From: a virus
DNA length: 50,843 nt
Strand: one strand, 5' to 3'
IMG/VR virus record: IMGVR_UViG_3300017963_003160
Location: 1-50,843 of that record
Shown: positions 1,455 through 23,705 of the stretch, piece by piece
How positions within the stretch are numbered: position 1 is the first letter of the stretch
Layout of the letters: every line of letters starts with the position of its first letter
Made by a program: the position numbers and the translations under genes
Notes under the pieces: generated by a model
The model's database searches: none
What the model saw: only the letters and a program-made list of their open reading frames with translations
Told to the model about the DNA's origin: nothing

Positions 1455-1456
1455 GT

Positions 1457-3396: not shown

Positions 3397-3397
3397 A

Positions 3398-5388: not shown

Positions 5389-5391
5389 TAT

Positions 5392-7716: not shown

Positions 7717-8146
7717 TTTTATTACAAACAGTTCATCAACAGCTTATGTTGTATTTATTCCAAATCGGTTTAAAGCGAATCGTGAAGAAGCCGCAGAGTA
7801 TTATAGAACCGATTATTATGCAGAACATGATCCGGAGTTTGATGATGATGTATTTCATGATATTGAGCAATCAATTGAAACATTGAAAACCGGAGAATAT
7901 CTATGGCAATATGGAGATGAGGGAACACCCGGAGCTGTTTATTATGCAGTATTAGAAATATGTATGAGAAACGGATTAGTTGTATCAAGTTCAGAAATGG
8001 GTGGAGAAGGAAATAATTCCATCTTCGGAGTTAAAGAAGAGCAAATCATTGACATCCTCAAGAATCACATGGATCTCAATAAACTTGTCAACACAGCAAA
8101 CCAAGGAGTTAAATTATGTTACGAAGCCGAAAAGGATTCACACTGA
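7700..8146 (+). CDS. NSSS-motif small protein B, 148 aa
   Basis: It begins MKIKVDFITNSSSTAYVVF, the second member of the N-terminal motif family. The body is acidic and different from member A, with a Tyr-rich helix (AAEYYRTDYYAEHD) and a C-terminal helical segment. No catalytic motif is visible. The start lies inside the end of the Cys-rich gene and the stop overlaps the prepilin-like gene by 31 bases, so all four genes from 7233 to 8352 are translationally interlocked. Confidence 0.75.
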   Translation: MKIKVDFITNSSSTAYVVFIPNRFKANREEAAEYYRTDYYAEHDPEFDDDVFHDIEQSIETLKTGEYLWQYGDEGTPGAVYYAVLEICMRNGLVVSSSEMGGEGNNSIFGVKEEQIIDILKNHMDLNKLVNTANQGVKLCYEAEKDSH

Positions 8147-8352
8147 TTGAATTGTTAGTATGTGTATTCATCCTTGCTATCTTGTTTTCGATTGCAGTTA
8201 CGTCATGCGGAGTATTCATGTCAACCAAGTCGCTTCAACAAGACAGCGGAGTTGAAATTATGTCACAAGAAGAAGAGCTGCAACAATTAAAAGAAAATCA
8301 ACCGGCGCAGACAGAAGTAAAATCCACAAAAGGAAATGAAAACAAACTATGA
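8116..8352 (+). CDS. Prepilin-like membrane protein, 78 aa
   Basis: The N terminus reads MLRSRKGFTLIELLVCVFIL, a textbook type IV prepilin cleavage/methylation motif: basic leader, Gly7 at -1, Phe8 at +1, Glu at +5. A hydrophobic helix follows to about residue 28. A C-terminal hydrophilic, Gln/Glu-rich tail replaces the globular pilin domain, so at 78 residues this would be a minimal pseudopilin. A lipobox-like VTSC also lies at the end of the helix. AAGGAG precedes the ATG at ideal spacing. A phage copy might be processed by host prepilin peptidase and act on pili or envelope secretion; that is inference. Confidence 0.65.
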   Translation: MLRSRKGFTLIELLVCVFILAILFSIAVTSCGVFMSTKSLQQDSGVEIMSQEEELQQLKENQPAQTEVKSTKGNENKL

Positions 8353-9377: not shown

Positions 9378-11563
9378 GAGAAATAACATTTCAAGAAGTC
9401 GGCATGGAAAATTATGGTCCTTATATTGATCCCATGATTCACACATTTACAAATGATACAATCACATTGATGACCGGTCCAAATGGAATTGGTAAAACCA
9501 TGTCTCTGGATGCAATACCTTTCACATTCTATGGCATTACATCAAAAGGAGCACGTGGCGATGATGTTGTAAATAATGTGGTTGGGAAGAATTGTCATAC
9601 ATGGGTCAAATTTAAAATCAATGAAGATCAATATCAAGTTGATCGGTATCAAAAATATACAAAGCGTGGGAATACGGTTGTATTGAATATGAATGGGGTC
9701 GATATTAAATCGGGTCATAGAGAAGTGTTACCTGAAATCGAAAGATTGATTTGTCCAGCAAAATCATTTATGAATACCTTGATGTTTGGACAAAAGGTAA
9801 AAGATTTCTTTACCGATTTGGTTGATTCCGACAAGAAAGAAATATTCAGAAAGATTCTCATGTTGGAACAATATATTCTGTTTTACAAAGAAACAGATAA
9901 ACGATTGAAAGAAGTAAATAACAATATTGATAATTTGTCAAATCAAGGCAAAATCAAACATGGGATTTTAGAAGATACGCTTGACCAGATCAAAACATTA
10001 CAGGCGTTGAAAAAGAAATTCTATGAAGATCAAAAACGAGAGATAGCTGATTTGAAAAGGGATCTGGAAGACAATGAACGTCTTACAGAAAACTGGAAAA
10101 AGGAGCTTGAAAAACTCGAGCAAACAGAGTTTAATCTCGAAACAATAACATCAGAAATAGCAATGATAAAATCAGAGCTTGAAAACTTTGATGCAAAATA
10201 TCAATTGTTATTTAATGATCTAAATGTTCAAAGAGATCAGAAAAGATACGAGATACAATCTGCAGCAGATAACGCTGCAAAAGAAGTTCGTGATACAGCA
10301 ATAAAAGCAAAAGATTCTATTGTGAGTTTGAAGGAAACAGTCACATTAAAGCTGAGAGAACTCACAGATAAGTGTAAACAAGTTCTTCATTCGCTTGAGT
10401 TAAAAAAGAATGATTTGATTGCAGATAACAGATCAAATGAATTGAGGATTCATGAAATCAATTCAAATGTGCTTGAGAAGGAGTTCTCCACATGTCCGAC
10501 ATGTGAGCAGGATGTGAATGAAAAAACCCGAGAGGGTTTAATGGAGAAGGTTCGGGGTCATGAGAATATTATAGCAACAAACAATAAAGAGATTGCATCT
10601 ATTGAAAAACAAATGACCGAAGCGAAGGAAGCACATATTGCAACCGAACGTGATATGAATGACCAAATAAAATCGTATCAAGATTCAATTGATGAAATCG
10701 AGCAAAACCAAAAAGATGGGCATGCAAAAATAAATGAGAGATTAACTCAAACATTTCAGAAAGTTGATGATGTGATGAAACAACAGCAAGCGAATCTTGA
10801 AGAAAAAGAATCGCAAGAAAAAGCTGATTTGTTGAAAAGAAAAGCTGAAGCAGAAAAGCTGAAAGAAGAAGCCATTGAGCATCAACAACGATATGATGGA
10901 ATCAGTGGAAAAATTAAAAATTTAGAGAATGGTCATGCAGTCATTGAAGCGAATATTAAAGCCGAGGAAGAAAAGACGTATGACGATAATCAATTGCTGA
11001 AATATCAACAAAGGGAGATTGATTTAAAATCACAAATTAAAACATTCGCCGCACAAGTAAAGCAGCTTGAAAAACGGCAAGAAGTGTTGTCATTCTGGAA
11101 AACAGGATTTTCATCAGCCGGAATGCCTTCAATGTTAATTGATGAATCAATCCCATTCATGAACCAAAAGGTCACAGAATATTTAGATATGTTGACCAAT
11201 GGACGATATATTGTTTCATTTGATACTCTTGCAGAAACAAAAGCAGGTGAGTTCAGAGATAAAATTTCTGTTAGAGTTTTAGATACACATACCCAGGCCA
11301 ATTCAAGAGTTCAATTATCGGGCGGACAAACACGAATAGTTGATATTGCAACAATATTGACTCTTGGTGAATTACAAGCAAACATGCAAGACATGAAAAT
11401 TAATATCTTGTTGTTTGATGAAATATTCGATGCACTCGATGATGAAAACATTGGATATGTAGCTAAGGTATTGAATAAATTGAAGATTGGGAAATCAATC
11501 TATATCATTTCGCATCAACATCAGGATCAAGTTGAAGCAGATCAAACATTAGCATTAAGTTAG
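9374..11563 (+). CDS. sbcC: Rad50/SbcC-type ATPase subunit (T4 gp46-like)
   Basis: An SMC-like ATPase of 729 residues. Walker A is GPNGIGKT (35-42). Long coiled coils flank a zinc hook CPTC (Cys374, Cys377). The ABC signature LSGGQ is at 648-652, Walker B LLFDE at 679-683, and the His switch region is SHQHQ. It partners the nuclease at 8349. Compared with bacterial SbcC (over 1000 aa) the coils are short, as in T4 gp46 (560 aa). The start ATGAG overlaps the nuclease stop by 4 bases. Confidence 0.93.
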   Translation: MREITFQEVGMENYGPYIDPMIHTFTNDTITLMTGPNGIGKTMSLDAIPFTFYGITSKGARGDDVVNNVVGKNCHTWVKFKINEDQYQVDRYQKYTKRGNTVVLNMNGVDIKSGHREVLPEIERLICPAKSFMNTLMFGQKVKDFFTDLVDSDKKEIFRKILMLEQYILFYKETDKRLKEVNNNIDNLSNQGKIKHGILEDTLDQIKTLQALKKKFYEDQKREIADLKRDLEDNERLTENWKKELEKLEQTEFNLETITSEIAMIKSELENFDAKYQLLFNDLNVQRDQKRYEIQSAADNAAKEVRDTAIKAKDSIVSLKETVTLKLRELTDKCKQVLHSLELKKNDLIADNRSNELRIHEINSNVLEKEFSTCPTCEQDVNEKTREGLMEKVRGHENIIATNNKEIASIEKQMTEAKEAHIATERDMNDQIKSYQDSIDEIEQNQKDGHAKINERLTQTFQKVDDVMKQQQANLEEKESQEKADLLKRKAEAEKLKEEAIEHQQRYDGISGKIKNLENGHAVIEANIKAEEEKTYDDNQLLKYQQREIDLKSQIKTFAAQVKQLEKRQEVLSFWKTGFSSAGMPSMLIDESIPFMNQKVTEYLDMLTNGRYIVSFDTLAETKAGEFRDKISVRVLDTHTQANSRVQLSGGQTRIVDIATILTLGELQANMQDMKINILLFDEIFDALDDENIGYVAKVLNKLKIGKSIYIISHQHQDQVEADQTLALS

Positions 11564-11570
11564 GAGAAAC

Positions 11571-11948
11571 ATGAAATTCAAACAAGATTTTGTAACAAAC
11601 AGTTCATCATCGTGCTTTGTATTAGCAGTTAGTCCAGAGCAACTGGAGGGTGTAAGAGAAACGGTTGCTGAATTGGATCGTCATCCAGATGCTGGTAATG
11701 AGGGAGTTCGAATATATGATGTATTTGATGATCTCAAAGAACTAGATGAATACACAAATGATGGACCCTTAGATTGGGCGCAAAAACCACGAGGTCCACA
11801 ATTCAATAACTTGGGACAATCAACATATGAAGCATGTCGAGAAGTGATTCTTGAAAATAAAATCGCAGTTTATATGGCAGTTGATTATAACGTGGTCGAG
11901 CAATTCCAAACAAAGTGGGATGACGTAATCCTTGAATGTATTTACTAA
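11571..11948 (+). CDS. NSSS-motif small protein C, 125 aa
   Basis: Third member of the motif family: it begins MKFKQDFVTNSSSSCFVLAV. The rest is acidic and predicted alpha/beta with no recognisable domain. An AGGAG precedes the ATG. It ends 9 bases before the radical-SAM ATG at 11958. The same pairing of an NSSS-motif gene with a radical-SAM gene occurs again at 49196-50600, which raises the possibility of a modifying enzyme and its substrate. Confidence 0.75.
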   Translation: MKFKQDFVTNSSSSCFVLAVSPEQLEGVRETVAELDRHPDAGNEGVRIYDVFDDLKELDEYTNDGPLDWAQKPRGPQFNNLGQSTYEACREVILENKIAVYMAVDYNVVEQFQTKWDDVILECIY

Positions 11949-11957
11949 GGAGTGCCA

Positions 11958-13007
11958 ATGAGTCTAATACGAATTGTAAATTGGATACTCACAAGGAAAT
12001 GTAATTTAGATTGTGAATATTGTGCAATTGTAAAAAATTACGATGGTATGCCGAGAGGGTATCCGAACATGCAACATTATCTTCAGGAGGAGATGTCAAC
12101 GGAAGTTGTGATAAATGCATTGAAAGCTTTCAAAAAACAGAATCCAAATGTATTTCATATCTTCTATGGTGGCGAGCCATTGTTAAGACCTGATCTTCCT
12201 GATATTATAAATTTCTGTAACGAAAACGAAATATATTATACAGTCATTAGCAACAACACTCCACAAATACAAGGTTTGATAGATCGCCTGTTTCAAGAAA
12301 CGGATTATGTTGAAGGGTTCACAAGTTCAGTTGACCCCATCTTTCATCACCCAGGATATGCAGGCGAGGATCGAATAAAGAAAAGTGTCGAGGGCATGAA
12401 ACGACTGAAAGAGATCCAAGCAAGGGGTGATGTAAAAGATGTAGTGGCTGAGATAACAGTCATGAATGAAAATCAAATGTTCCTTTATGATCTTGTTAGT
12501 GAATTAAGCGAGCATGAAATATATAGCGATATCACATTTGTAGATATTGCAAAAAATCCATATTATGATTTTTCAAATGTCACAGATCCAGAGCAGCTTG
12601 TTAAACCCTCATGGAGATTAGCAAAAGATTTAATGGCCATGCAAATGGACACAGATTTATATATTCATATGAAAGATGTTTTGCTACCGCAGATGTTTGA
12701 TACGTTACCTTCAAATTTTGATTGTGATCTTGATCTTGGAGTTCACAATGTAACGGTTGATGCAGACGGAACCATGAGATTATGCCTTCGTATTAGAGGA
12801 ACATTAACGCCACATATTCATGTGAGTGAGTTATTTGAAGAAGAAAATCCAATGGCTGTAACAAGAGATTTCTTCGAACTCATGTGTATGGATAAACGAA
12901 GGCATTGTAAACTCTGTAATCATTCCTGTTTAATGATGAGCAAACACATTGACAGAAATGATGATGGAGAAGATGATCTGGTTCATTCGGATAAACGGAG
13001 GGACTAA
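11958..13007 (+). CDS. Radical SAM protein with C-terminal Cys cluster
   Basis: The radical-SAM motif CNLDCEYC (Cys15, Cys19, Cys22) binds the 4Fe-4S cluster that cleaves S-adenosylmethionine; a GGEP motif follows near residue 72. The C-terminal part has a Cys near CDLDLG, RLCLRI and a final CMDKRRHCKLCNHSC cluster, typical of SPASM-like auxiliary iron-sulfur domains found in peptide- and protein-modifying enzymes. I start at the ATG with AAGGAG 5 bases upstream rather than the GTG two codons earlier. It is too long and has the wrong architecture for QueE. Its substrate is unknown; the preceding NSSS-motif protein is a candidate. Confidence 0.85.
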   Translation: MSLIRIVNWILTRKCNLDCEYCAIVKNYDGMPRGYPNMQHYLQEEMSTEVVINALKAFKKQNPNVFHIFYGGEPLLRPDLPDIINFCNENEIYYTVISNNTPQIQGLIDRLFQETDYVEGFTSSVDPIFHHPGYAGEDRIKKSVEGMKRLKEIQARGDVKDVVAEITVMNENQMFLYDLVSELSEHEIYSDITFVDIAKNPYYDFSNVTDPEQLVKPSWRLAKDLMAMQMDTDLYIHMKDVLLPQMFDTLPSNFDCDLDLGVHNVTVDADGTMRLCLRIRGTLTPHIHVSELFEEENPMAVTRDFFELMCMDKRRHCKLCNHSCLMMSKHIDRNDDGEDDLVHSDKRRD

Positions 13008-13010
13008 ATA

Positions 13011-13343
13011 ATGCCACAGGCAGATACAGACATTATCAGAAGTGCAGTAGAGTTTTGGGAAAAGTTATATCAAGTTGGAGAAGCAAAAGTGAAGTTCGTT
13101 AAGAAAGATGGTACAATTCGTATTATGAAATGTACTTTGGATTTCACAAAGATTCCAAAAAAACAGCACCCCAAAACAGTAAACATGCCCAAAATATTAA
13201 AACTCATGCAAGAGAGTGGAATCATTCATGTTTATGATCTCGAAAAGAAAGATTGGAGATCGGTTCCTTTCAGGCAGGTAGATTGGTTAGAGTTAGAGGG
13301 CGATCAAAATCAACGGTACAAAATCAGACCATTCAAAAGGTAA
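13011..13343 (+). CDS. SH3 beta-barrel / WYL-like small phage protein
   Basis: The central block KVKFVKKDGTIRIMKCTLDF...IP, followed by VYDLEKKDWRSVPFRQV, matches a group of small phage proteins annotated as SH3 beta-barrel fold (DUF2693-like). In these, a positively charged barrel follows a helical N terminus. Length (110 aa) is normal. The family has no proven role, though nucleic-acid binding or transcription control has been suggested for related barrels. It sits 3 bases after the radical-SAM gene and 6 before the next gene. Confidence 0.6.
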   Translation: MPQADTDIIRSAVEFWEKLYQVGEAKVKFVKKDGTIRIMKCTLDFTKIPKKQHPKTVNMPKILKLMQESGIIHVYDLEKKDWRSVPFRQVDWLELEGDQNQRYKIRPFKR

Positions 13344-13349
13344 TCGAAT

Positions 13350-13727
13350 ATGGGAATTTTGAAACAGCTTTTAAATGAATTGAAGGATTCACCTTTAACT
13401 GATCAAGTAAGAATCATTTGCGATCAGATTATCGAAGAAGAAAAAAATTCGATTGAATATCCCGAATTGAATCCAACAGGTCCAAGGGTATTCTTATCCT
13501 TGAGCGTTCCAGGAAGGAATAATAAAGAAGTTGGGTTTCTTACATTAGAAAGAGAAGATGAAGAAGTCTATGTTGCGATATACAGCACATTAGAGAAACA
13601 TCGAATAGTTGAAAATCCGGAGGAACAGTTACCTCCACGTCGGAGAAAGGTTTGGGTCATTGATGAAAACAAAGCTGAAAAAATCTTGACCCAATATGCG
13701 AAAAAACTTAAAATGTTAAGGGGATAG
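13350..13727 (+). CDS. Unknown protein, 125 aa, upstream of the Ubl locus
   Basis: A helical N terminus (residues 1-33) is followed by beta-rich sequence (VFLSLSVPG, VGFLTLE, VYVAIYS), a basic PPRRRKVWVI segment and a C-terminal Lys-rich helix. I recognise no family. It lies 3 bases before the E2-like fusion gene, in the same operon, so it could be an accessory factor of the ubiquitin-like pathway, but nothing in its sequence demonstrates that. Confidence 0.6.
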   Translation: MGILKQLLNELKDSPLTDQVRIICDQIIEEEKNSIEYPELNPTGPRVFLSLSVPGRNNKEVGFLTLEREDEEVYVAIYSTLEKHRIVENPEEQLPPRRRKVWVIDENKAEKILTQYAKKLKMLRG

Positions 13728-13730: not shown

Positions 13731-16301
13731 ATGAGAGAACCCAGAAAGGACAAGCTGGTCGAAGAGATCAGATTCAATGAGAAGTATGCGCATCTATTTC
13801 TTTCGGAGTATATCCCGGAAAAGTATGAGGCGGATTCACTTCCGACCATCAAAAAGAAAACATTATTCACACAAGATTATGTTAAAAGATTAACCGCCGG
13901 TGGTATTGAAGGTGGTATAATTCCTCCGAACGTAAGATATATTGAGGAATTAGAAAAGGGACACCTTGTTGTCGTTGAAGAACCTCCGGCATACAGAACC
14001 ATCAAATCAGATATGTCATTCGGCGAAGAGATCAGCAAGCTGAAACGTGACGGAAAGATTGATATGATGGGGTATACCGATTGGATGAACGAGAACAGAA
14101 AACCTTACACGTTCACCCTTGCTTTTCCGTATGTAATATTCATATTCTATATCACCAAATATAATGAAATGACAAGCGGTCAGGTTTATTTGAGAACCCA
14201 GCAAATGACCGGTCTATCAGATTATCTTCTAAAAATGCCGATGTGTAATATATCCGATGGTGGATACATCTGCTTCGGAAATGAAGGTTCAAAACGACAA
14301 CAGTCATTCACCGCAGCAATTCAGCATGCAGTCATGGTATGGTGGTCTGCAACATTCAATACAGATTATACATATAATTATGCAGCATATAAAGATGTTC
14401 CAGTATTGAACAGCTATCTTGAGTGGCAATACATGGGGCAAGCAAATCCGATGTTCATCTATAATGCTGATTGGATTAAAATGGACCGCACCATAGGTCA
14501 AATGTTAGACCATACAAAAACAAGTCATGGCCTTAACGGAAAGAAAACAATGGGTTATAAAGAATTGGCCCAGATGTTTTATGAATCACAGGATACAGGC
14601 ACCGAGATCAAAGTATCAAAACGATCCAGAAAGACACATAAATTGTTCTATGACATTGCTCAGGGAACATATCTTGATGAACGTACAAACATAGCCGTTG
14701 GAGATTCTTTTGAGACAGCAAAAGGGCAGATGGCTTTCATTGATTCGTTTGTTGGGTTTCCCGATGGGAGCGATGTTAAATATATGCAAGTTGATATTAA
14801 CGGTCGATTGTCTTTATTGAAGTTGACACCGAAAACCCGTCCATGGTTGGCAAAGAAAATCACAGAGCAAAGAAGAGCCGATGAAGCAACAATTCCAAAT
14901 GGAACAGTTGTCAAACCCGGACAGATTCTCATTGTCAAACAGGGAGAAGGCGAAGTATATCACAAAGTTGAATTTATCAGAAAAAGTCGTGGTCTTGAAG
15001 GCGAAGATGTCCTTGAAGTTAAAATGGGAAATGATTATTATCTCACTTCGAACCTTGAAGCGACTGAATTTAAAGTCGATGAACCTGAAATCGACGGTCT
15101 TAAATTAAATAAAGAAGACCAATATATTATTCTTGGAGATGCAACCCATGCAGGTTGCAGAGTCAACGCTTACCGAATGAGATTCGATTCAATTGATGTT
15201 TCTGCTCGTGGTCGGGTGATTGCAAGATTTGTAAATTGCCATCCAAGGTTAGACGGGCATGACAGAAGAATTGAATTATCAAACGGTGCTCCGAAAAGAA
15301 TAGTCTATCATCTCGATGAAGTCAAACGACTTCAAGGACCAGTCAGAGTTGGAAAAAGGCTCTATCAAGTATCTGACGGAAACGGGAAGCCAAGACCGGA
15401 AGTTATGTGGGGAATGAATGGAATCACCGGTTACGATGGAAACTTCTCTTTGAAAACAGTCAAAGGAAGCATGACGAAACAACTGATTGATGGAGACAAA
15501 TTCTTTGTTGAAGGTGCAGATTTCGATACAGAATTTGAAATCGGAGATAAAGTTGTTGTGGCCAATTGGCAAGACCCGTTAGATGTGTTGACAGTTAAAA
15601 TGATCCAGGGATTCAAATATCAGGAAGACTATGGTCACATTTCATTTATATTGATTGACAAAGAAGGGAAATTATCAGAAACCCAATATGTTGACGGATA
15701 CACAGGTATTATCCATACCGGTCGAATCAGAAAGGTGACAAACAAGGTCGGTCGTTTATCAGCAGGCACAAAGATCAGAGCCACAGTTGCCGGCATTCCT
15801 TGCTTCCCGAAGAAGGACGTCAACATTATTGTTGCATTTGTCATTGATACAAACCGTGAACCATTAGTTCTGTGTTCAAACGGATGCACATTATGGTTGA
15901 GCGATGTTCAAGAAAACTTCAAGAGAATTACATTGAAGTCCAAACAATGGCCGAAACTTGATCATGCGCCACTGGATCTTTCAAAGATCAAATTTCAAGC
16001 AGGCGATATTATCAATGGTCTGAAAGATTACAAGAGCAAATATGGTTACCTATTATATGGCCCGTCCACAACAAGGGCATTACGAGCAATGCCATTGGAA
16101 TATTTCGGTGGCTATCCTGAGTCCTATTCCCTTGACCGTTATATGACAAGGGAGTGCAGATTGGATTGCATTCCTGCACCGAGGGTCTCGCCGGCGAAAA
16201 TCGAACAAGTTGGCGTTCTCAGGGGAATGTTAGACTTACATTCCTATGATGTATTCGAGAACAATTTATCAACCAGATACCTTAACCAAAGGAGAGCTTA
16301 A
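13731..16301 (+). CDS. E2-like (PRTRC protein B / Prok-E2_D-like) domain fused to a long beta-rich region, 856 aa
   Basis: Residues about 65-270 look like the E2-fold family of PRTRC protein B: beta strands (HLVVVEEPP, PYVIFIFYI), then PMCNISDGGYICFGN, which mimics the canonical E2 N-x5-G-x-I-C block with Cys181 at the catalytic position. A helix-rich segment with WWSATFNTDYTYN follows. The remaining 580 residues are predicted beta-rich, with repeated small-barrel-like units, and resemble nothing I know. The gene opens the run of JAB, E1 and modifier genes; its stop overlaps the JAB start by one base (TAATG). I infer a conjugation or scaffold role. An inactive E2-like adaptor is an alternative. 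GC is slightly higher than in flanking genes. Confidence 0.6.
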   Translation: MREPRKDKLVEEIRFNEKYAHLFLSEYIPEKYEADSLPTIKKKTLFTQDYVKRLTAGGIEGGIIPPNVRYIEELEKGHLVVVEEPPAYRTIKSDMSFGEEISKLKRDGKIDMMGYTDWMNENRKPYTFTLAFPYVIFIFYITKYNEMTSGQVYLRTQQMTGLSDYLLKMPMCNISDGGYICFGNEGSKRQQSFTAAIQHAVMVWWSATFNTDYTYNYAAYKDVPVLNSYLEWQYMGQANPMFIYNADWIKMDRTIGQMLDHTKTSHGLNGKKTMGYKELAQMFYESQDTGTEIKVSKRSRKTHKLFYDIAQGTYLDERTNIAVGDSFETAKGQMAFIDSFVGFPDGSDVKYMQVDINGRLSLLKLTPKTRPWLAKKITEQRRADEATIPNGTVVKPGQILIVKQGEGEVYHKVEFIRKSRGLEGEDVLEVKMGNDYYLTSNLEATEFKVDEPEIDGLKLNKEDQYIILGDATHAGCRVNAYRMRFDSIDVSARGRVIARFVNCHPRLDGHDRRIELSNGAPKRIVYHLDEVKRLQGPVRVGKRLYQVSDGNGKPRPEVMWGMNGITGYDGNFSLKTVKGSMTKQLIDGDKFFVEGADFDTEFEIGDKVVVANWQDPLDVLTVKMIQGFKYQEDYGHISFILIDKEGKLSETQYVDGYTGIIHTGRIRKVTNKVGRLSAGTKIRATVAGIPCFPKKDVNIIVAFVIDTNREPLVLCSNGCTLWLSDVQENFKRITLKSKQWPKLDHAPLDLSKIKFQAGDIINGLKDYKSKYGYLLYGPSTTRALRAMPLEYFGGYPESYSLDRYMTRECRLDCIPAPRVSPAKIEQVGVLRGMLDLHSYDVFENNLSTRYLNQRRA

Positions 16302-18184
16302 TGTTCAAAGTTGTCGTGAATGACGGGACACAGGAACTTCCGGATGATGATGTTTATTACATCGTCGCAAAAGAAGGAATCTTCCTGAAAAAGAAAATGG
16401 GGGTGATGGAAAGCATCGCCCCCGTTGACAAAATATCAATATTAGAAAGTGCCAATACAATGGCACGCATGTATATTAATCCATTGCCAGCACAAACCGG
16501 AGCCAAAATTCTTGAGTTCTTCAAAGCAGTATATAAGGAATATCATGGCGAAGCAATTGTGTTGTTATTCTACAATGAGGAAACAGGGAAGTATCGAGTT
16601 GTTCCTCCCCATCAAAAGGTTACATCAGCAGCATGTGATTACAACAGAGGTGTGACCATCGAAGGTTGGACAATGATCGGAACGATCCATAGCCATGCAA
16701 ACTTTTCAGCGTTTCATTCCGGAACGGACGATGATGACGAAAAGACCTTCGATGGCCTTCATATCACATACGGCAACGTCATGTCTGAGGAGTTCAGTTT
16801 ATCAGCATCAATCGTTGCCAACGGCCATCGGTTTGTTGTTAACCCGGAAGATTACATGCTTGGCTTGACCAAGACAAAAGATGTTGATGAAAAAGAGGTC
16901 AAATATACGACCAAGATTTATAAAGCTGACCCCAAAACAGGAAAAATGGTTTTGGATGAAGCGGCGAGCAGTCGTAGTGCATATTCAACCCGCAAATATG
17001 ATAAGCGGTTCAGGTTCAATGTATCAAAGAGCAAACGTCAATTCAATCCGAAATGGATGGACATGGTTGAAAAAGGAACCTACGTCTACACATACGGAGG
17101 CTACGGTGGTTGGCGTGGCGGGAATTATTGGCAGAATCGTGGTCAGGGGTACCGTGGTGCTCCGGGAGGCGGTTATGGTTGGGGTGGAAATTATGATCCC
17201 AACGCATGGAAAAATGCAGGTCGATATATTGCACCTGGTGTCAAGAAGCCATTGTGCGGTTCGGGACCTGGCACGCCTGGTGTGGTTGTCAAATCCGATG
17301 AGAAAACAGCAGCCTGCGGTTCAACAAATCCATGTCTGTCATGCAAGAACCGTGATATCAAAATTATGAATGAAATGGAAGGCATCGAATTTGAGGAAGA
17401 GATGTATCATTGTGAAAAATGTAATGTTGTTTTCACAACGACAGATGATGCCCCAAAATGTCCAAAATGTAAAAAGGACGACCACATGGTCTTGATTGAT
17501 GAAGATGATCTTAAAGATAATTTTGAAAAGGGTGATCCGCCCATACTCGATGATATTGATCGGGAAGCGGCACTCAATTCTGCACAATCAATGAACCCGG
17601 ATCAACAGGGATACGAAACATGTTTGGAATGTGGAAATACATTTCTCATGTTGGCATCGGATGAATGTTGTCCATTTTGCCATACCTTGTTGCCGGATAC
17701 CGTGGTTGCGTCTGGCCCTCCATCAGCACCAACAAATTGGGAATGCCCGCATTGCCAAGGTGTGTTTACGGAAGCTGGAATGGTCAATCATAATGAATGT
17801 CCCCATTGTAGTGGTGCAGTGGAGCTGCACGTCGAAAACCCTAATGACAAGGTTACGGTATTATGTCCGACATGCCAAGAAGAAAATACACTGGCAAGCC
17901 TTGAATCCATGGGTTGTTGTTATATGTGTCATGCTCCTTATTCAAACGGCGAAATTGACCGAGAGAAACAAATGGAAGCTGACTCGGGGGCATTTCTACA
18001 TCAATCAGACGAAGAGCATCAAGCAATATTAGATGCTGCAGCAGAAGCCGACAAAAACCTTGAACGGATTCCGGATCCAGAAAAAGCTGGCCAATCAATT
18101 CCATTGGCGAAAGAAAGCTTAACCTTAATTGAGAAATTCAAAAAGGTATTCGGAAAGGGAGGTGGAAATGACACAGTCCATTAA
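16301..18184 (+). CDS. JAB/JAMM metallopeptidase with five zinc-ribbon units, 627 aa
   Basis: Residues about 45-190 form a JAB/MPN domain. Glu84 and HSH-x7-SGTD (His130, His132, Ser140, Asp143) make up the zinc-catalytic JAMM motif of deubiquitinase-type isopeptidases. A low-complexity Gly/Tyr/Trp/Arg-rich linker spans 265-310. Then come paired CxxC zinc ribbons at about 345-348, 371-390, 441-460, 482-503 and 522-543. The JAB domain resembles PRTRC protein A. Its likely job is to trim the modifier C terminus or remove it from targets; the ribbons may bind targets, modifier or nucleic acid. It overlaps the E1 gene by 17 bases. Confidence 0.85.
   Translation: MFKVVVNDGTQELPDDDVYYIVAKEGIFLKKKMGVMESIAPVDKISILESANTMARMYINPLPAQTGAKILEFFKAVYKEYHGEAIVLLFYNEETGKYRVVPPHQKVTSAACDYNRGVTIEGWTMIGTIHSHANFSAFHSGTDDDDEKTFDGLHITYGNVMSEEFSLSASIVANGHRFVVNPEDYMLGLTKTKDVDEKEVKYTTKIYKADPKTGKMVLDEAASSRSAYSTRKYDKRFRFNVSKSKRQFNPKWMDMVEKGTYVYTYGGYGGWRGGNYWQNRGQGYRGAPGGGYGWGGNYDPNAWKNAGRYIAPGVKKPLCGSGPGTPGVVVKSDEKTAACGSTNPCLSCKNRDIKIMNEMEGIEFEEEMYHCEKCNVVFTTTDDAPKCPKCKKDDHMVLIDEDDLKDNFEKGDPPILDDIDREAALNSAQSMNPDQQGYETCLECGNTFLMLASDECCPFCHTLLPDTVVASGPPSAPTNWECPHCQGVFTEAGMVNHNECPHCSGAVELHVENPNDKVTVLCPTCQEENTLASLESMGCCYMCHAPYSNGEIDREKQMEADSGAFLHQSDEEHQAILDAAAEADKNLERIPDPEKAGQSIPLAKESLTLIEKFKKVFGKGGGNDTVH
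16399..16423 (+). other. GC-rich hairpin inside the JAB gene
   Basis: Ten-base-pair inverted repeat (GGGGGTGATG against CATCGCCCCC, one G-U pair) with a 5-base loop, about 100 bases into the coding region. It is far more stable than expected in this AT-rich sequence. It lies within codons for MGVMESIAPV, so it may be coincidental, or may slow translation or stabilise mRNA. No U-run follows, so it is not an intrinsic terminator. Confidence 0.5.
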
Positions 18185-18857
18185 TATTGTTATTGTCGGA
18201 CTGGGCGGTGTCGGAACCATCTTGGCAGAACGCCTGTGCCGGTTTCTGAACTTTTCTCAAGATTATTCAGCAGAGATATTGTTGGTCGATGGAGACCAAT
18301 ACGAAATGAAAAATTTCGAGCGGCAGGAATTTAGCGGAATGGGCAACAAAGCTGAAACAAAAGCTGATGAGCTTGCTATGAAATTCAGCAACATTGAATT
18401 TGACATATTCGATGCTTACATTAACGAAGAGAATATTGCCCAAGTAATCAAAGAGAATACAATTGTATTCATATGTGTTGACAATCACAAATCCAGAATG
18501 ATAATTAACAATTATTGTATGAATCTGCAAGATGTTACAGTTATTTCTGGTGGGAATGAATTGACAGATGGAAATGCACAACTCTATGTCCGAAAGGGAG
18601 GGAAGGATTTAACACCGGACCTATGTGCTTATCATCCAGAGATTGCAAACCCTGACGATAAGTTACCAGACGAAATGTCATGTGAGGAATTATCACAATC
18701 GGAACCCCAGTTATATTTCACAAATCTGGGCGTTGCAACGCTGATGTGTTGGATGTTTTACAACTCTGTTGTGAAGGGCCAGCATGATCGGTCGGAGGTC
18801 TACTTTGACATCCTGAGTATGAACTCCAACTCGAAGATTCGAATCGTAAAGGAGTAG
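18168..18857 (+). CDS. ThiF-family E1-like activating enzyme 1 (PRTRC ThiF-like)
   Basis: A 229-residue Rossmann adenylating domain: GLGGVG (11-16) binds ATP, and DGDQYEMKNFERQ (Asp41, Asp43, Asn49, Arg52, Gln53) is the E1 signature. MSCEELSQSEPQLYFTN near 170-186 resembles the PRTRC ThiF segment, in which a Cys (here Cys172) may carry the modifier thioester. It would adenylate the C terminus of the modifier encoded 55 bases downstream. The ATG at 18168 is chosen because GGGAGGTGG sits just upstream; an earlier in-frame start at 18129 is unlikely. It lacks a separate Cys domain or UFD, so it is a minimal E1. Confidence 0.85.
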   Translation: MTQSINIVIVGLGGVGTILAERLCRFLNFSQDYSAEILLVDGDQYEMKNFERQEFSGMGNKAETKADELAMKFSNIEFDIFDAYINEENIAQVIKENTIVFICVDNHKSRMIINNYCMNLQDVTVISGGNELTDGNAQLYVRKGGKDLTPDLCAYHPEIANPDDKLPDEMSCEELSQSEPQLYFTNLGVATLMCWMFYNSVVKGQHDRSEVYFDILSMNSNSKIRIVKE

Positions 18858-18861
18858 TCTG

Positions 18862-18909
18862 ATGACTACATTTCGTGAACAACAAACTAAACTTAGCAAG
18901 GAGATTTAA
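18862..18909 (+). CDS. Possible 15-aa leader ORF before the modifier gene
   Basis: ATG with AAAGGAG 7 bases upstream, 15 codons (MTTFREQQTKLSKEI), stopping 2 bases before the modifier ATG. The modifier's own Shine-Dalgarno (AAGGAG) lies within its last codons. Its sequence mirrors the start of the modifier (TFxREQ), and the 11-mer TCGTGAACAAC occurs in both (18873-18883 and 18929-18939). It may couple translation or be the relic of an older start of the same gene. Existence as a peptide is unproven. Confidence 0.35.
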   Translation: MTTFREQQTKLSKEI

Positions 18910-18911
18910 AC

Positions 18912-19385
18912 ATGGGAGCTACTTTTACTCGTGAACAACTGGAAGCCAAAACTGCAGTCGAACTGAAACGTATGTGTGTTGATGAACTCGCCATCCCCGG
19001 CATGACCAAGAAAGCCAAGGATATCGTGATCGACGCCATTCTGGCCAAGTTCGGTGCCTCCAGCGGAACCATCGCCAAAGCGGCGAAACCTGCAGACAAA
19101 ATGGCCGGCGTGGCCTTCCAGGCCCAGTCCGTCCTGACCAAACCTTCGGCTCCTTTCGGGTCCAAAACCTCCACCACCATCCAGGTGTCCTGTGGTGCCT
19201 CCACCGGTAACTTCCCCGTTGCCGGCCGAAGCGTCAAGGAAGTTGGGGAGTTCCTCCGTGAGGTTCTGAATGTGGACAAGCTGTCCACCGGTCTGGTAAA
19301 CGGCAAGGAAGTCGGTGCCGACTATACCCTGAAACCCGGCGATACTCTTGAGTATCTGAAACCTGCCGGCAAGAAAGGGTGCTAA
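18912..19385 (+). CDS. Ubiquitin-like modifier with N-terminal SAP-like domain
   Basis: Residues about 5-48 form a SAP/HeH-like helix-loop-helix (AVELKRMCVDELAIPGMTKK), usually a DNA-binding unit. A Lys/Ala/Ser linker to about 87 leads to a beta-grasp domain (88-157) with strands IQVSCGA and NFPVAG, helix VKEVGEFLREVLN, then GLVNGKEV and LKPGDTLEYLK. This resembles the Prok-Ub/PRTRC protein C and ThiS families. The C terminus is PAGKKGC: Gly156 then a single Cys157, so the usual GG is absent and trimming may be needed. GC is about 60-65% in the middle, against about 37% around it, with CTG, ACC, GCC and GGC codons. That implies very high expression or recent acquisition. Confidence 0.78.
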   Translation: MGATFTREQLEAKTAVELKRMCVDELAIPGMTKKAKDIVIDAILAKFGASSGTIAKAAKPADKMAGVAFQAQSVLTKPSAPFGSKTSTTIQVSCGASTGNFPVAGRSVKEVGEFLREVLNVDKLSTGLVNGKEVGADYTLKPGDTLEYLKPAGKKGC

Positions 19386-19403
19386 TCCATCCTTGATGGA
19401 GTA

Positions 19404-19432
19404 AAAATGGGGGGCCTCCGGGTCCCCCAAAT
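19404..19432 (+). terminator. GC-rich hairpin after the modifier gene
   Basis: An 8-pair stem (GGGGGGCC with GGTCCCCC, one G-U) and a TCCG loop lie about 20 bases after the modifier stop. The bases after it are not U-rich, so it is not a classic intrinsic terminator. A 3'-end stabiliser or attenuator that raises modifier mRNA above the downstream genes would fit a highly expressed gene in an operon. Confidence 0.5.
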
Positions 19433-19456
19433 CCACTTGGAAGGAGAAGTAATTTA

Positions 19457-20374
19457 GTGTTTCGTAAAGTGGCAGTAATCGGAGTAGGCACATTAGGTGG
19501 GTTTCTATCTAAGCATATTTCCGAATTGAGCGATGTAAAGGAATTAGTAATTATTGACCCAGACATTGTTGAAAGCAAAAATGTTTTTAAGTCCATTTAC
19601 AGCTCTTCACAAGTCGGTGACTATAAGGTCAATGCATTAGCAGATATTATAAATGATGATGTTGCTGTCACTAAAATTAACAGGAGGTATGTTGAAGGAC
19701 AAACTTCTCTGCCTCAATGTAACCTTATAATAGATTGCAGGGACGTTGTTTGTAATAGAGGTGATGAAATTGATGTTCGATTTTACATCTCAGAAAAAGT
19801 TCTAATAATTGATTGTAGAAAGAATGTCAAAAATGCCTGTTCGTATGACGGAGCATATTCAATTCAATTGTCAAGACCGGAGATTAATAAAGCAGCATTT
19901 TATGCAGCACAAATAATCGACAGTCCAGAGATCCATGATATGATGAAAAACAATATGCTTCAACGGGTTGATTTGAAAATTCTGCCTTCGATTATGAGCA
20001 AAGCTATCAAAAGAACTTTGGACAATAAAATTGATATTGTTTATGAACAAGCGGATGTATCGCAACGTCTCCAATGCATAGAAGACAACATCAAACCAAT
20101 ATTAGAAGTAAACGAAAATGAACACGTCGATGTTTATGTTGGAGAAAAACCAACAGCTAACGTTCTGCAAAGGCTATTTCATAGAATGCCAGAAGTAGCA
20201 GAAACAAAATATGCCTTAATTCCAGCGGGAAGTCTTAATACATCAATGGATGTAATGAGACGTCTCTCAGATTTAGTTGATTCACAACCAGGAGTATCTA
20301 ATTTTATAGTTACTGTAAGGAGAGAAAATGGCCGCACATTCATCGAATTATTGGAAGAAACGGGCGCCGCATAA
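19457..20374 (+). CDS. ThiF-family E1-like activating enzyme 2
   Basis: A second Rossmann E1-type protein, 305 residues: GVGTLGG (9-15), IIDPDIVESKNV (Asp34, Asp36, Asn42) and Lys57 in GDYKVNAL. It is only distantly similar to the E1 at 18168. It has a C-terminal extension of about 120 residues whose end (YALIPAG..., FIVTVRRENGRTFIELLEE) looks like a small alpha/beta module. Candidate Cys residues are 94, 99, 120 and 128; no obvious catalytic one. The start is GTG with AAGGAG 10 bases upstream. It overlaps the E2-like gene by 47 bases, suggesting the two products work as a pair. Confidence 0.78.
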   Translation: MFRKVAVIGVGTLGGFLSKHISELSDVKELVIIDPDIVESKNVFKSIYSSSQVGDYKVNALADIINDDVAVTKINRRYVEGQTSLPQCNLIIDCRDVVCNRGDEIDVRFYISEKVLIIDCRKNVKNACSYDGAYSIQLSRPEINKAAFYAAQIIDSPEIHDMMKNNMLQRVDLKILPSIMSKAIKRTLDNKIDIVYEQADVSQRLQCIEDNIKPILEVNENEHVDVYVGEKPTANVLQRLFHRMPEVAETKYALIPAGSLNTSMDVMRRLSDLVDSQPGVSNFIVTVRRENGRTFIELLEETGAA

Positions 20375-20804
20375 ACCGATGGAATATGTTGACGACCGAA
20401 TAGTCATATGGGGTCACAACACAGATCTCCCTCTCATAGAGAAAATTCATCTCTATGAGGGGCAGATCATACCGAACCGTATGATTAAAGACAAGCAAGT
20501 TTATGAAATTACAAAATTGCACCCACAATTTTTTATTAATGGGTTCATAGTTATAACAGAACAGGAGTTTGTAACAAACATTGTATTGTTTGGATATCAC
20601 CCAAACAGAGATCCTGATACACATTTATATTGTTTGCCTGATTATAAAAAGGGCGTGAAATACGACCAAAAGTATTTCGACATGCTTCTAACAAATATAA
20701 AGACGTATTATCTGGATGATTGTTTTTATACACCACCGAAAAATCAGGTGGAATATAAAAGAATCAAATCAGTGCCTATGAAATCGAGTCAAGGAGAAAA
20801 ATGA
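20328..20804 (+). CDS. E2-like ubiquitin-conjugating enzyme, 158 aa
   Basis: The block FGYHPNRDPDTHLYCLPDY (His91-Pro92-Asn93, Cys102) reproduces the E2 active-site pattern HPN-x(7-8)-C-L-x-D of ubiquitin-conjugating enzymes. The strand order before it (DDRIVIWG, FINGFIVITEQE, VTNIVLFGY) fits the E2 sheet, and a C-terminal helix follows. At 158 residues it is the size of a plain UBC domain. AAGGAG 6 bases before the ATG supports this start inside the E1-2 gene. It should accept the modifier from an E1 on Cys102 and pass it to a target Lys. No E3 is recognisable nearby. Confidence 0.72.
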   Translation: MAAHSSNYWKKRAPHKPMEYVDDRIVIWGHNTDLPLIEKIHLYEGQIIPNRMIKDKQVYEITKLHPQFFINGFIVITEQEFVTNIVLFGYHPNRDPDTHLYCLPDYKKGVKYDQKYFDMLLTNIKTYYLDDCFYTPPKNQVEYKRIKSVPMKSSQGEK

Positions 20805-21022
20805 TGAGTGACACACCAAATATAATGGAAGATTATATAAGAAAATTAATCAAAGAAGAAATGGATAAACAAGCTGACTTGTTAGAAGTGACATTGAAAG
20901 AAGAAGATGCAAGTAGAATCGTTTTGGCAATTTTACCCCATTTAGATGAACTTATATCCAAGCGAGTCAAACAGCATTTCACCGAGTTAGCAGATCTCGT
21001 AAAAGGGAAATTTTCACAATAA
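20801..21022 (+). CDS. Small acidic helical protein, 73 aa
   Basis: Overlaps the E2-like stop by 4 bases and ends 13 bases before the RNA polymerase beta' gene. The sequence is almost wholly helical and acidic (MEDYIRKLIKEEMDKQADLL, then a Leu-rich heptad-like region). No domain is recognised. Its place between the conjugation genes and the polymerase makes it a candidate adaptor for either, but that is position-based inference. Confidence 0.6.
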   Translation: MMSDTPNIMEDYIRKLIKEEMDKQADLLEVTLKEEDASRIVLAILPHLDELISKRVKQHFTELADLVKGKFSQ

Positions 21023-21035: not shown

Positions 21036-23705
21036 ATGCCAAAAGTTTTAGATTACGCACAATTCTGTGAAGATCTAGAGGAAGTGACCTCTCTAAAAGT
21101 ATTCGGAAAGAAGAAGTTTCATCCGCAAGGTCTGTTCTCAGAGCAGATTTTCGGACCCCTAAAAAATTACACATGTCAGTGCGGAACCTACTATGGCTTA
21201 TCGAAATCGGGCGGAAAGTGTTCAACATGCGGAGTTGATATTATCAACAGTGATGTAAGGAGAACACGTTTTGCAAAAATCGGATTGCCAATCCCTGTAG
21301 TCAACCCTCTATTCTATGACCTTGTTGTCGAGGTAGGGGGAAAGACTTTAAAACATGCCATTGATGAATTAATGCGAAATGAAAAAAGTTATTTATACAT
21401 GGACGGGCTTGAGCATATCGTTGGATCCGATCAAGATAAGATTGAAGCAGGAATAGAATATTGGGAAAGGACTGATGCAATATATAAACTGATTAAAGAC
21501 TTATCTCTCCTATTCGCAAAAGATGGTGTTCCTGAGTGGGTTTTAATTTACAATAACATTGAAAATCTTTTGATTGACCATGTGATTGTGCTACCACCAG
21601 ACCTGAGACCATCATCTGCTGCAGCAGGTGGGAAACAGTTGATGGACAAAATCAATAGATATTACGTTCAAATATTAACGAAGAAGGAGATCATGAAAGA
21701 TACAATGATCAATATTCTTCGTGATAAGAATTTGTATTATACATACTTCAAGCAATTACAGAAGGATGTGAATGAGTTATATCATCGAATATTAGAAAAG
21801 ATGGCAAAGAAGGAAGGGTTGATTCGTGGAAACATCTTAGGTAAACGTATCGACTTTTCTGGTCGTGCAGTTATTACACCAGATCCAACATTGAATATTG
21901 ATCAATGTGTTTTGCCATACATCATGATTTTAGAATTATTTAAATTGCCAATTGCAAAGAGAATCATTGAAATTGGTAAATTTAAATTGTTGAATAAAGC
22001 AATTGACTTTGTTGACAAATGCATCGAAACAAACAATCCGGTGCTTTACAAAATATGTGAAGAAGTAACTAAAGATGAGGTTTGTATATTGAACAGACAA
22101 CCTTCGCTTCACAGATTGGGTATGCTTGCATTTAACATTAAAATGACAATGGATAAAGTCATTAAAATTCATCCTCTTGTATGTCCTCCATTCAATGCAG
22201 ATTTCGATGGAGATCAAATGGCTGTTTATATTCCAGTCACAGAGGAAGCAAAACAAGAGATTCGTGAAAAGATCTTCATCACGAAAAATTTGAGCAGCCC
22301 ATCAAATCAAAGCTTGACAACAGTTCCAAGTCAAGATATAATCCTGGGTATCTATTTTATAACATCACCGGACTTTGAAGATCGCCAGGAAGGATTCAAA
22401 TTATTCAATGACTGTCTACCGGAGGATTATCCCGAAGTAACAGAAATCGTTGATGAAAAGAAACTTCTTGCAATTTTGAATGATATTAAAGATAAATATC
22501 CTGAGGATGTTACGGCACAAACATTGGATGCTGTCAAACGAGTTGGATTCAAATATGCAACTCTTCTTGGTTGCACAATGTCTCTTGATGACTTTGACTT
22601 TGAAGGAGCAGATGATATTCGTAAATCAATCTATGATAAAAAAGAAATCAGAGATCAATTGGTTGCAGCAAACAGTGCAGAGGTAATCGAAGGATTGAAA
22701 AAGACCTTCCCGTATGCATACATGATCGAATCTGGAGCAAGGGGAAGTTGGGATCAGGCAAAACAAATGATCCTAACCCGTGGGTTTATCTCAAACTTTG
22801 AAGGGGAGATTTTACCAACTCCTATTAAAAACAGCCTGGTACAAGGATTGACTCCGCAGGAGTTTTTCTTATCGACCAATGGTTGTAGAAAAGGTCTTCT
22901 TGATGTTGCATTGAATACAGGAACATCAGGTTATCTATCAAGAAAATTGATATTCACATGTGCCAATTTACAGATTGATGAAAATCTTGATGATTGCGGC
23001 ACAACGGATTTCCTTGAAGTGAATGTTAAATCAAGCAAGAAGGCAAAAATGCTTGTTGGCAGAAATATGTCACAAGGTGGTGAGTTGGTCAAAATTACAC
23101 CTGAAAATTGTGAAGATTTGGTCGGTCAGGTAATTAAAATCAGAAGTCCGATTCTTTGCAGATCACCCAAATTGTGCAAAACATGTTATGGAGATCTTTA
23201 TAAATATATAAACAGTCGTTTTGTTGGAATCATTGCAGCACAAACCCTTGGTGAAAGAGGGACCCAGTTAGTGTTGAGAACATTTCACACATCAGGTTCA
23301 GCTGTTATCAAAGGTGAAGATGCAAGCGATCAAAGCATGAAACAGAAAGACATCATTGGCGATTTGGCAGCAGTTGCAGAATTGCTTCACAGATTCAGGG
23401 GCAAAGATTATACAAAAATTGTCAATGATCTATTCGCAGTATATGACAAGGACATACATCATGTGCATTTCGAGTGTGTTGTAGCACAGTTGATGTGGAA
23501 AAATTCACGCAAGTGGAGACTGCTTGAAGACCGAGACAAGGTTAAACCATCATATTTCAGTATCCAATCGGTTCCAAACCAGGAAAGTTGGATATTGGCA
23601 ATGGCGTTTTCAAACCCAAAACGAAGCATATTGAAAGGAATTATGTATGAAGGTCGCTACTCAGGCATAATGGATAAAATCCTAAAGGGAGAAATGATTG
23701 AATGA
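21036..23705 (+). CDS. rpoC: DNA-directed RNA polymerase beta'-like subunit, 889 aa
   Basis: The catalytic Mg motif NADFDGDQM is at 387-395. Other beta' landmarks are GLFSEQIFGP (32-41), an N-terminal zinc module (Cys47, Cys49, Cys62, Cys65), GNILGKRIDFSGRAVI, NRQPSLHRLGM and a second zinc cluster LCRSPKLCKTCYG. The trigger-loop region contains ERGTQLVLRTFHTSGSA. It is one continuous chain, unlike the split subunits of phiKZ-like phages, but much shorter than bacterial beta' (about 1400 aa). No alpha, omega or sigma gene is visible. It overlaps the beta gene by 4 bases. It probably transcribes a class of phage genes. Confidence 0.95.
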   Translation: MPKVLDYAQFCEDLEEVTSLKVFGKKKFHPQGLFSEQIFGPLKNYTCQCGTYYGLSKSGGKCSTCGVDIINSDVRRTRFAKIGLPIPVVNPLFYDLVVEVGGKTLKHAIDELMRNEKSYLYMDGLEHIVGSDQDKIEAGIEYWERTDAIYKLIKDLSLLFAKDGVPEWVLIYNNIENLLIDHVIVLPPDLRPSSAAAGGKQLMDKINRYYVQILTKKEIMKDTMINILRDKNLYYTYFKQLQKDVNELYHRILEKMAKKEGLIRGNILGKRIDFSGRAVITPDPTLNIDQCVLPYIMILELFKLPIAKRIIEIGKFKLLNKAIDFVDKCIETNNPVLYKICEEVTKDEVCILNRQPSLHRLGMLAFNIKMTMDKVIKIHPLVCPPFNADFDGDQMAVYIPVTEEAKQEIREKIFITKNLSSPSNQSLTTVPSQDIILGIYFITSPDFEDRQEGFKLFNDCLPEDYPEVTEIVDEKKLLAILNDIKDKYPEDVTAQTLDAVKRVGFKYATLLGCTMSLDDFDFEGADDIRKSIYDKKEIRDQLVAANSAEVIEGLKKTFPYAYMIESGARGSWDQAKQMILTRGFISNFEGEILPTPIKNSLVQGLTPQEFFLSTNGCRKGLLDVALNTGTSGYLSRKLIFTCANLQIDENLDDCGTTDFLEVNVKSSKKAKMLVGRNMSQGGELVKITPENCEDLVGQVIKIRSPILCRSPKLCKTCYGDLYKYINSRFVGIIAAQTLGERGTQLVLRTFHTSGSAVIKGEDASDQSMKQKDIIGDLAAVAELLHRFRGKDYTKIVNDLFAVYDKDIHHVHFECVVAQLMWKNSRKWRLLEDRDKVKPSYFSIQSVPNQESWILAMAFSNPKRSILKGIMYEGRYSGIMDKILKGEMIE

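Follow-up and report, generated by a model that had tools for sequence, protein, structure and literature searches.

The stretch of DNA analysed here (the window) is an IMG/VR virus record, IMGVR_UViG_3300017963_003160, of 50,843 bases. Because it contains terminase, tape measure, baseplate wedge and hub genes, it can be assigned to a phage with a contractile tail, of whose genome it is a fragment; this agrees with the tailed-phage origin proposed in the original prediction, which was made from the sequence by eye. Six adjacent genes in the window probably encode a reversible ubiquitin-like conjugation pathway that belongs to the core genome of a clade of large tailed phages, with transcription complexes as its likeliest targets. 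These genes encode a long E2-like fusion protein (E2F), a JAB/JAMM metallopeptidase, an E1-like activating enzyme (ThiF1), a ubiquitin-like modifier (Ubl), a second E1-like protein (ThiF2) and a small E2-like protein (E2s).

All the component classes are thus present within one cassette, and the active sites are invariant or nearly so in sequences down to 25-30% identity. The cassette very likely serves protein conjugation; that transcription complexes are its main target is a tentative proposal, which we hold with somewhat less than even confidence. The gene set, the catalytic residues, the selection, the synteny and the domain fusions are read directly from the sequence. The original prediction had also claimed a working protein-modification pathway, and this appears well supported by the conservation of catalytic residues, by the fixed synteny, by the C-terminus of the modifier, and by a ratio of nonsynonymous to synonymous substitution (dN/dS) of 0.06-0.30 in every cassette gene (window against two relatives), which indicates purifying selection.

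The proteins of the cassette

Relatives were collected in two sets. The first came from scans of IMG/VR with JAB and ThiF1 alignments. For the second (the RNA polymerase-anchored set), IMG/VR was rescanned with RpoC alone, so that relatives were not picked through the cassette; in 60 of the contigs obtained, the sequence extends 8.5 kb or more upstream of rpoC. The six plus-strand genes that had been predicted at 13731-20804 are all present as open reading frames (ORFs), as are the residues named for them, these being Glu84, His130, His132 and Asp143 of the JAMM protein (conserved in relatives), the nucleotide motifs GLGGVG in ThiF1 and GVGTLGG in ThiF2, and HPN (91-93) with Cys102 in E2s. The family searches that had been proposed were run, and the window proteins matched ThiF (PF00899, 5.7e-21 for ThiF1 and 8.9e-11 for ThiF2), Prok-JAB (1.3e-5) and Prok-E2_D (0.0017). 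Loss of the E1, E2 or JAB catalytic residues in relatives had been named as evidence that would count against a pathway; they are instead invariant or nearly so.

ThiF1 also matches PRTRC_ThiF of NCBIfam (5e-11); its PDB matches are BubCD, UBA5 and MoeB, and it resembles ThiF as well. It keeps GxGGxG, D43, K63 and D107, with key residues found in 60-67 of 67 relatives. Both the nucleotide motif and a candidate catalytic cysteine of an E1 are seen, GxGGxG, D43 and D107 in all 67 and C174 in 61. C174 lies in what we take to be the region of the catalytic cysteine of ThiF and UBA3. At least some of the six sequences that lack it are from loci whose best ThiF1 match is really a ThiF2-like paralogue. 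The listed ThiF1 ORF opens at TTG 18129; this codon is probably not used and ATG 18162 is probably the start, because a strong ribosome-binding site (AGGGAGGTGGAA) precedes the ATG. ThiF2 gives profile matches to MoeB, MccB, ThiF, Cap2 and UBA5, and keeps G9, G11, G14, D34, K57 and C94 (key residues in 64-67 of 67).

The N-terminal domain of E2F has the features of an E2 with a catalytic cysteine: N173 and C181 are invariant in 55 of 55 relatives, and 27 of 33 relatives match Prok-E2_D (best 3.1e-6). These two residues align with the motif LPFPN-x7-C in the E2 proteins of the phages Arash and D69, described below. In the AlphaFold2 model (predicted local distance difference test, pLDDT, 86.7) the C-terminal 550 residues form a string of small β-barrels. 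The best PDB matches found by Foldseek are Spt5/DSIF chains (1.1e-5 to 6.9e-5), followed by UBE2O (7.2e-4), Tudor and PWWP domains. As the TM-scores are low, we claim this region only as a barrel array; no KOW or NGN match was found with Pfam in 33 members, and sequence homology to Spt5 or KOW is not indicated in them.

The JAMM protein matches Prok-JAB with 25.5 bits (cut-off 25) and PRTRC_A at 2e-10, and has the full motif of a JAMM deconjugase. E84, H130, H132, S140 and D143 are kept in all 67 of the first relative set; in the RNA polymerase-anchored set E84 is kept in 61 of 62 and the other JAMM residues in 62 of 62. The protein carries 9 CxxC motifs.

The modifier of the window by itself gives little or no family signal. 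Among 36 members of its family, however, Pfam matches were obtained to Rho_N in 27 (best 1.8e-9), TGS in 27 and ThiS in 19, and because of these matches the modifier is read as a Rho_N-linker-β-grasp protein. A SAP domain at the N-terminus was considered and rejected, with only 5 of 36 members matching it as against 27 for Rho_N, and an identification as PRTRC_C was rejected with no match in the 36. G95, G105, G131, E147, K155 and G156 are invariant (42/42). The modifier ends in G-x-KG and a variable tail of 0-9 residues, the KG being found in nearly all members: mostly nothing follows it, in roughly a quarter a single residue does (usually Cys, as in the window), and tails of 2-9 residues are seen in a few. 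In one relative (L023/L071) two whole modifiers are fused in tandem, and KG marks the point where they join. The TGS and ThiS matches, the invariant G156, the variable tails and the tandem copy are together those of a β-grasp modifier with a C-terminal glycine. Since the tandem copies, and the repeats in cultured phages described below, match the arrangement of polyubiquitin, they point to release of the modifier from a precursor by cleavage after KG, with the neighbouring JAMM enzyme as the presumed processor. The 125-aa protein encoded upstream ends in RG or RGE, and is unlikely to be a second modifier: it has no family match and carries a C24/E67-R68 signature.

E2s has no family match of its own. 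P49, H91, P92, N93 and C102 are the only five invariant columns among 32 sequences at about 27% identity, and in the RNA polymerase-anchored set HPN...C is found in 53 of 59, the other six (HVN, HAN, HCN, HPH) retaining the Cys. HPN and an active-site cysteine are therefore present at the spacing of an E2. At three loci (L065, L023 and L024) E2s was missed by BLAST yet is present, the loop from HPN to Cys being longer. A profile of the family gave three matches in the PDB. Two of these, UBE2U and Pex4 (E 0.17 and 0.45), are E2 enzymes whose own HPN and catalytic Cys match those of E2s in the alignment (HPNVDPHTGQPC, HPNVNFKTGEIC); the third is a designed repeat protein (5cwi), and we regard that match as due to chance. 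In the AlphaFold model, with a core pLDDT >90, a β-meander is followed by HPN, Cys and a helix, the succession expected of an E2, and the first E2 helix is absent.

It could be proposed that ThiF2 and E2s are paralogues without activity that serve as scaffolds, as UEV/RWD proteins and non-catalytic E1 halves do, and that the real pathway consists only of E2F, JAB, ThiF1 and Ubl. This four-gene form does stand alone in Patescibacteria metagenome-assembled genomes (MAGs) and other contigs, and ThiF2 lies on a very long branch. Nevertheless, the HPN and Cys102 of E2s are invariant or nearly so and the nucleotide-site residues of ThiF2 are kept in 64-67 of 67, which is atypical for inactive paralogues, and we consider the proposal rather unlikely.

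A second alternative is chemistry of the sulfur- or amino-acid-carrier type, with the modifier as a carrier like ThiS, MoaD or CysO, activated by ThiF1 and ThiF2, the JAMM enzyme freeing a small product, as Mec releases the product from CysO-cysteine, and the E2-like proteins being accessory. The modifier domain matches ThiS, TGS and MoaD, many copies end in KG-Cys, ThiF1 resembles MoeB and ThiF too, and preQ/queuosine-like genes were recognised nearby by eye. On the other hand, conserved cysteines are seen in both E2-like proteins of nearly every cassette, none of the genes recognised beside it is for a rhodanese, sulfurylase or cysteine synthase, the modifier tails vary, with most copies stopping exactly at KG and a tandem modifier existing, and the Rho_N and barrel-array fusions would be unexpected for a sulfur carrier. 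Carrier chemistry is thus very unlikely.

Conservation beside the RNA polymerase genes

The scans with JAB and ThiF1 found about 40 distinct IMG/VR contigs with the layout of the window, which runs radical S-adenosylmethionine (SAM) protein, WYL_2, 125-aa protein, E2F, JAB, ThiF1, Ubl, ThiF2, E2s, a 73-aa protein (X73), rpoC, rpoB. Among the 60 RpoC-anchored contigs, 51 have the six cassette genes as separate ORFs in one order, with the end of E2s no more than 0.83 kb from rpoC. WYL_2 is found in 54 of the 60, the 125-aa protein in 46 and X73 in 45 (its H59 being kept in 25 of 25). Full-length RpoC sequences form 68 clusters at 95% identity, and all six cassette genes accompany 53 of them. The RNA polymerase-linked contigs with the cassette reach 248 kb. 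The cassette is a near-fixed trait of an RNA polymerase-encoding phage clade.

The domain fusions follow the same pattern. Rho_N on the modifier occurs together with a nearby rpoC in 68 loci, whose E2 proteins have 660-1228 aa; the 7 loci that have no rpoC nearby all lack Rho_N, with E2 proteins of 220-484 aa. One locus (L077) is an exception, with rpoC present and a modifier without Rho_N; the other apparent exception (L005) is a piece taken from the window. Two long contigs (L080 and L081, 458 and 177 kb) carry the short form of the cassette, and a window-type RpoC, sought over the whole of both contigs, gave no match. In the ThiF1 tree the RNA polymerase-linked loci form one group (91/83). 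Three features go beyond the original prediction: the Rho_N domain on the modifier and the barrel array on E2F, which are both new here, and the almost constant position of the cassette next to rpoC in relatives.

Two further observations were made on these contigs. The larger ones, five contigs (those of L054, L073, L082, L023 and L024), have a second, divergent β'-like gene elsewhere, which suggests two phage RNA polymerases. One contig (L097, DAOVGR010000079.1), binned as a Thermoplasmatales archaeon, has the gene content of a phage contig of the window's clade, which may be a binning error or a hint of the host.

Table 1 Features of the cassette and its constant neighbours in the window.
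Feature	Position	Strand	Length	Description
WYL_2 protein	13011-13343	+		WYL_2 match 1.5e-10; constant upstream neighbour
125-aa protein	13350-13727	+	125 aa	Conserved C24, G44, E67-R68; constant upstream neighbour
E2F	13731-16301	+	856 aa	N-terminal Prok-E2_D-like E2 domain (N173, Cys181); C-terminal SH3/KOW/Tudor-like barrel array
JAB/JAMM	16301-18184	+	627 aa	Metallopeptidase (E84, H130, H132, S140, D143); Gly-rich linker; CxxC zinc-ribbon tail
ThiF1	18162-18857	+	231 aa	E1-like activating enzyme (GLGGVG, D43, R54, K63, D107, probable catalytic Cys174)
Ubl	18912-19385	+	157 aa	Modifier: Rho_N-type domain (~5-48), linker, β-grasp (~88-156), end PAGKKG-C
ThiF2	19457-20374	+	305 aa	Second, divergent E1-like protein (GTLGG, D34, K57, C94, D119)
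E2s	20328-20804	+	158 aa	Small E2-like protein, HPN(91-93)-x8-Cys102; overlaps end of ThiF2 gene
X73	20801-21022	+		Short protein, probably helical; conserved His; lies between E2s and rpoC
rpoC	21036-23705	+		RNA polymerase β'; constant downstream neighbour
rpoB	23702-26698	+		RNA polymerase β; constant downstream neighbour

Elsewhere in the window, five small ORFs (7233-7529, 7700-8146, 11571-11948, 50220-50600 and 50582-50843) open with a leader-like motif, MK(I/L/V/F)K-x-DF(V/I)TNSSS, and radical-SAM genes (11952-13007 and 49196-50200) adjoin two of them. The motif is found in 33 of the relative loci, and possibly belongs to a peptide-modification or marking system. By eye, the regions 1313-5832, 8349-11563 and 27253-28847 contain topoisomerase subunits, 6-pyruvoyl-tetrahydropterin synthase-like and QueF-like genes (queuosine/preQ pathway) and an SbcCD-like pair.

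The proposed pathway and its targets

We infer the order of transfer, the division of labour between the E1s and the E2s, the isopeptide chemistry and the targets as follows. The JAMM peptidase would trim the modifier precursor after Gly156, taking off Cys157 in the window and longer tails or a tandem copy elsewhere. ThiF1 would adenylate the C-terminal glycine and load the modifier onto its own cysteine, from which it would pass to Cys181 of E2F and/or Cys102 of E2s, with ThiF2 acting as a second or partner E1 subunit. The modifier would then be joined to amino groups of target proteins, from which the JAMM enzyme could take it off again. The Rho_N domain of the modifier and the KOW/Tudor-like array of E2F may hold the reaction close to nucleic acid or to transcription complexes, and this tethering would make RNA polymerase, of the phage or of the host, and the factors associated with it the likeliest targets.

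The original prediction had suggested action against defence or on transcription. The second suggestion gains circumstantial support from Rho_N, the Spt5-like array and the adjacency to rpoC, and the first gains none. A specific version, in which a Rho_N modifier is attached to phage or host RNA polymerase by an E2 with an Spt5-like array, and the second E1 and the HPN-type E2 give a branched or two-step cascade, is possible and is put forward with some reserve. If true, it would be a prokaryotic counterpart of the ubiquitination of RNA polymerase II.

Several observations weigh against the proposed pathway and its link to transcription. The Prok-E2_D match of the window E2F (0.0017) is under the gathering score. 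The Spt5 matches of E2F are at TM-scores of only ~0.06-0.14, indicating a barrel string and no Spt5 homologue. With the model of E2s, Foldseek found nothing significant in either the PDB or the viral set; for this reason, and because the first E2 helix is absent, we call the protein E2-like and not a proven E2, its fold being suggested by the motif, the strand order and weak profile matches. Both ThiF1 and ThiF2 are without the N-terminal helix of MoeB type, which in MoeB-type enzymes supplies an arginine finger. The related cassettes of the phages Arash and D69 are not beside RNA polymerase genes. Finally, the RNA polymerase-linked loci group together in the ThiF1 tree, and the correlation of RNA polymerase, Rho_N and long E2 therefore lies in one clade and not in independent events; it may be a single evolutionary event. 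This association supports coupling to transcription and does not prove it.

Two other kinds of target were weighed against transcription complexes. Host defence or incoming phage proteins might be modified, for counter-defence or superinfection exclusion, much as CBASS (cyclic-oligonucleotide-based antiphage signalling system) Cap2, Bil or Bub work, here in the service of the phage. The E1 proteins do have antiphage relatives: PADLOC E1-E2 models match ThiF2 (6e-13), BilD matches ThiF1 weakly, and BubCD is among the PDB matches of ThiF1. However, PADLOC gave no match for either E2-like protein, the JAMM protein or the modifier, and a near-fixed core place beside RNA polymerase (51/60) is unlike the patchy occurrence of counter-defence genes, so that this use appears improbable.

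Conjugation might also be aimed at virion proteins or their maturation, comparable to the ubiquitin-like/JAB pair of lambdoid tail assembly, the two genes being placed in tail clusters by Iyer 2006 (PMC1779556). The paper on Arash lists Gp246, Gp247 and Gp248 among virion-associated proteins, with RNA polymerase subunits very abundant, and two Arash cassette proteins are annotated as structural following virion proteomics. This is weak evidence, as the table of that paper and the GenBank labels do not match exactly, and carry-over is likely in a set of 116 proteins that includes many enzymes. Moreover, the cassette of the window sits with RNA polymerase, WYL_2 and nucleic-acid genes and away from the phage tail cluster, which is at 37-48 kb. 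We regard virion targets as quite unlikely.

Comparison with known systems

The PRTRC plasmid cassette (operon class 6d) has an E2 (PRTRC_B/Prok-E2_D), a JAB (PRTRC_A) and a ThiF homologous to those of the window, with JAMM and E1 chemistry in common, and the gene order B-A-ThiF is also that of the window. A resemblance to PRTRC B, A, ThiF and C had been claimed; homology is confirmed for B, A and ThiF, and does not extend to C, which none of the 36 members of the modifier family matches. The window cassette is not itself a PRTRC member: its scores against TIGR03735/36/37/38 are far under the curated cut-offs (PRTRC_A 40.5 against 101.8, ThiF 42.3 against 144.75, B 11.2 against 131.45) and its gene content differs. 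On a Polaromonas plasmid the PRTRC order is C, hypothetical, B, A, ThiF, whereas in the window the modifier has moved downstream and is fused to Rho_N, the E2 is about three times longer, ThiF2 and an HPN-type E2 are added, and the cassette lies in a tailed-phage genome beside RNA polymerase. No PRTRC F-like gene was recognised in the window cassette, and no ParB-like protein was recognised by eye among the window ORFs, the NCBIfam scan covering ten neighbouring proteins at most.

The nearest relatives of ThiF1 (43-47% identity) are in cassettes of Patescibacteria MAG contigs (L098-L100), and a tree node (97/86) joins them with the window ThiF1 and other contigs. Together with three IMG/VR loci (L079-L081) they have the same four-gene core of E2, JAB, ThiF and Ubl as the window. 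They differ from it in a modifier of 68-136 aa without Rho_N, an E2 of 220-484 aa, no rpoC nearby and no E2s found. The MAG contigs show the minimal arrangement, with a standalone modifier of 68-86 aa ending TKG or DKG.

Related cassettes are also present in cultured tailed phages, namely Salmonella Arash, Vibrio D69 (and D181/D148) and Bacillus KLEB27-3, where they are unrecognised or partly annotated in existing records. Like the window, these have a modifier, an E2 similar to Prok-E2_D/PRTRC_B, a JAB and a ThiF; unlike in it, only a single ThiF and no HPN-type E2 were noticed in them. Their modifiers end TGTKG or GVKG. In the ThiF tree Arash, D69, KLEB27-3 and the Polaromonas PRTRC ThiF lie away from the window ThiF1 on a PRTRC-like side, with modest support. 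KLEB27-3 gp199 (OM634661.1, L212 742-1449) consists of four near-identical ubiquitin-like repeats of 57-58 aa, each ending GVKG, and a short tail. Its whole-protein score is above the PRTRC_C cut-off, and genes for an E2, a JAB and a ThiF are close by; in the record both this modifier and that E2 are annotated hypothetical. D69 has three tandem ubiquitin-like repeats ending TGTKG (L003 5310-6101), also annotated hypothetical.

It is worth adding that two apparent defects of these cassettes were rejected. The E1 of D69 (OZ195729.1, L003 ~8872-9867) looks degraded because GenBank places its start too far downstream; read from 8872, the frame contains GCGGTG together with the half of ThiF that binds the nucleotide. 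The modifier of Arash is not absent but unannotated in another frame, is PRTRC_C-like and ends RTGTKG; the frame annotated as gp251c (OQ632216.1, L004 ~107-304) is probably not the right one.

The Bub, Bil, CBASS type II Cap2-Cap3 and 6A-MBL systems share prokaryotic E1-E2-JAB chemistry and are distant relatives of the window ThiF proteins. They are antiphage defences of a different architecture, with E1-E2 fusions, whereas the window has E1 and E2 as separate genes in a phage core. A PADLOC scan of the cassette matched only the two ThiF proteins, with none of the fusion and partner genes specific to CBASS II, Bil or Bub. Structurally, E2F resembles UBE2O, an E2 with SH3-like domains, and the Spt5 KOW array, a string of small barrels like its C-terminus; in both cases the TM-score is low and no sequence homology is shown. 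The domain order of UBE2O differs from that of E2F.

Searches of the open-licence literature turned up no phage described as carrying a complete E1-E2-Ubl-JAB cassette. Bacterial ubiquitin-like conjugation has so far been known from plasmids and antiphage defence; Iyer 2006 (PMC1779556) describes the PRTRC-type class 6d and, for phages, the ubiquitin-like/JAB pair in lambdoid tail clusters, the only phage example described among the papers found. The cassette of the window would add an entire cascade in which the E1-like and the E2-like proteins number two each, one of the latter being of the eukaryote-style HPN type, as a core trait of a phage clade tied to RNA polymerase genes. The role of PRTRC-type cassettes, and whether prokaryotic ubiquitin-like tagging regulates transcription, become testable questions, and the related cassettes of cultured KLEB27-3, D69 and Arash put bench tests within reach.

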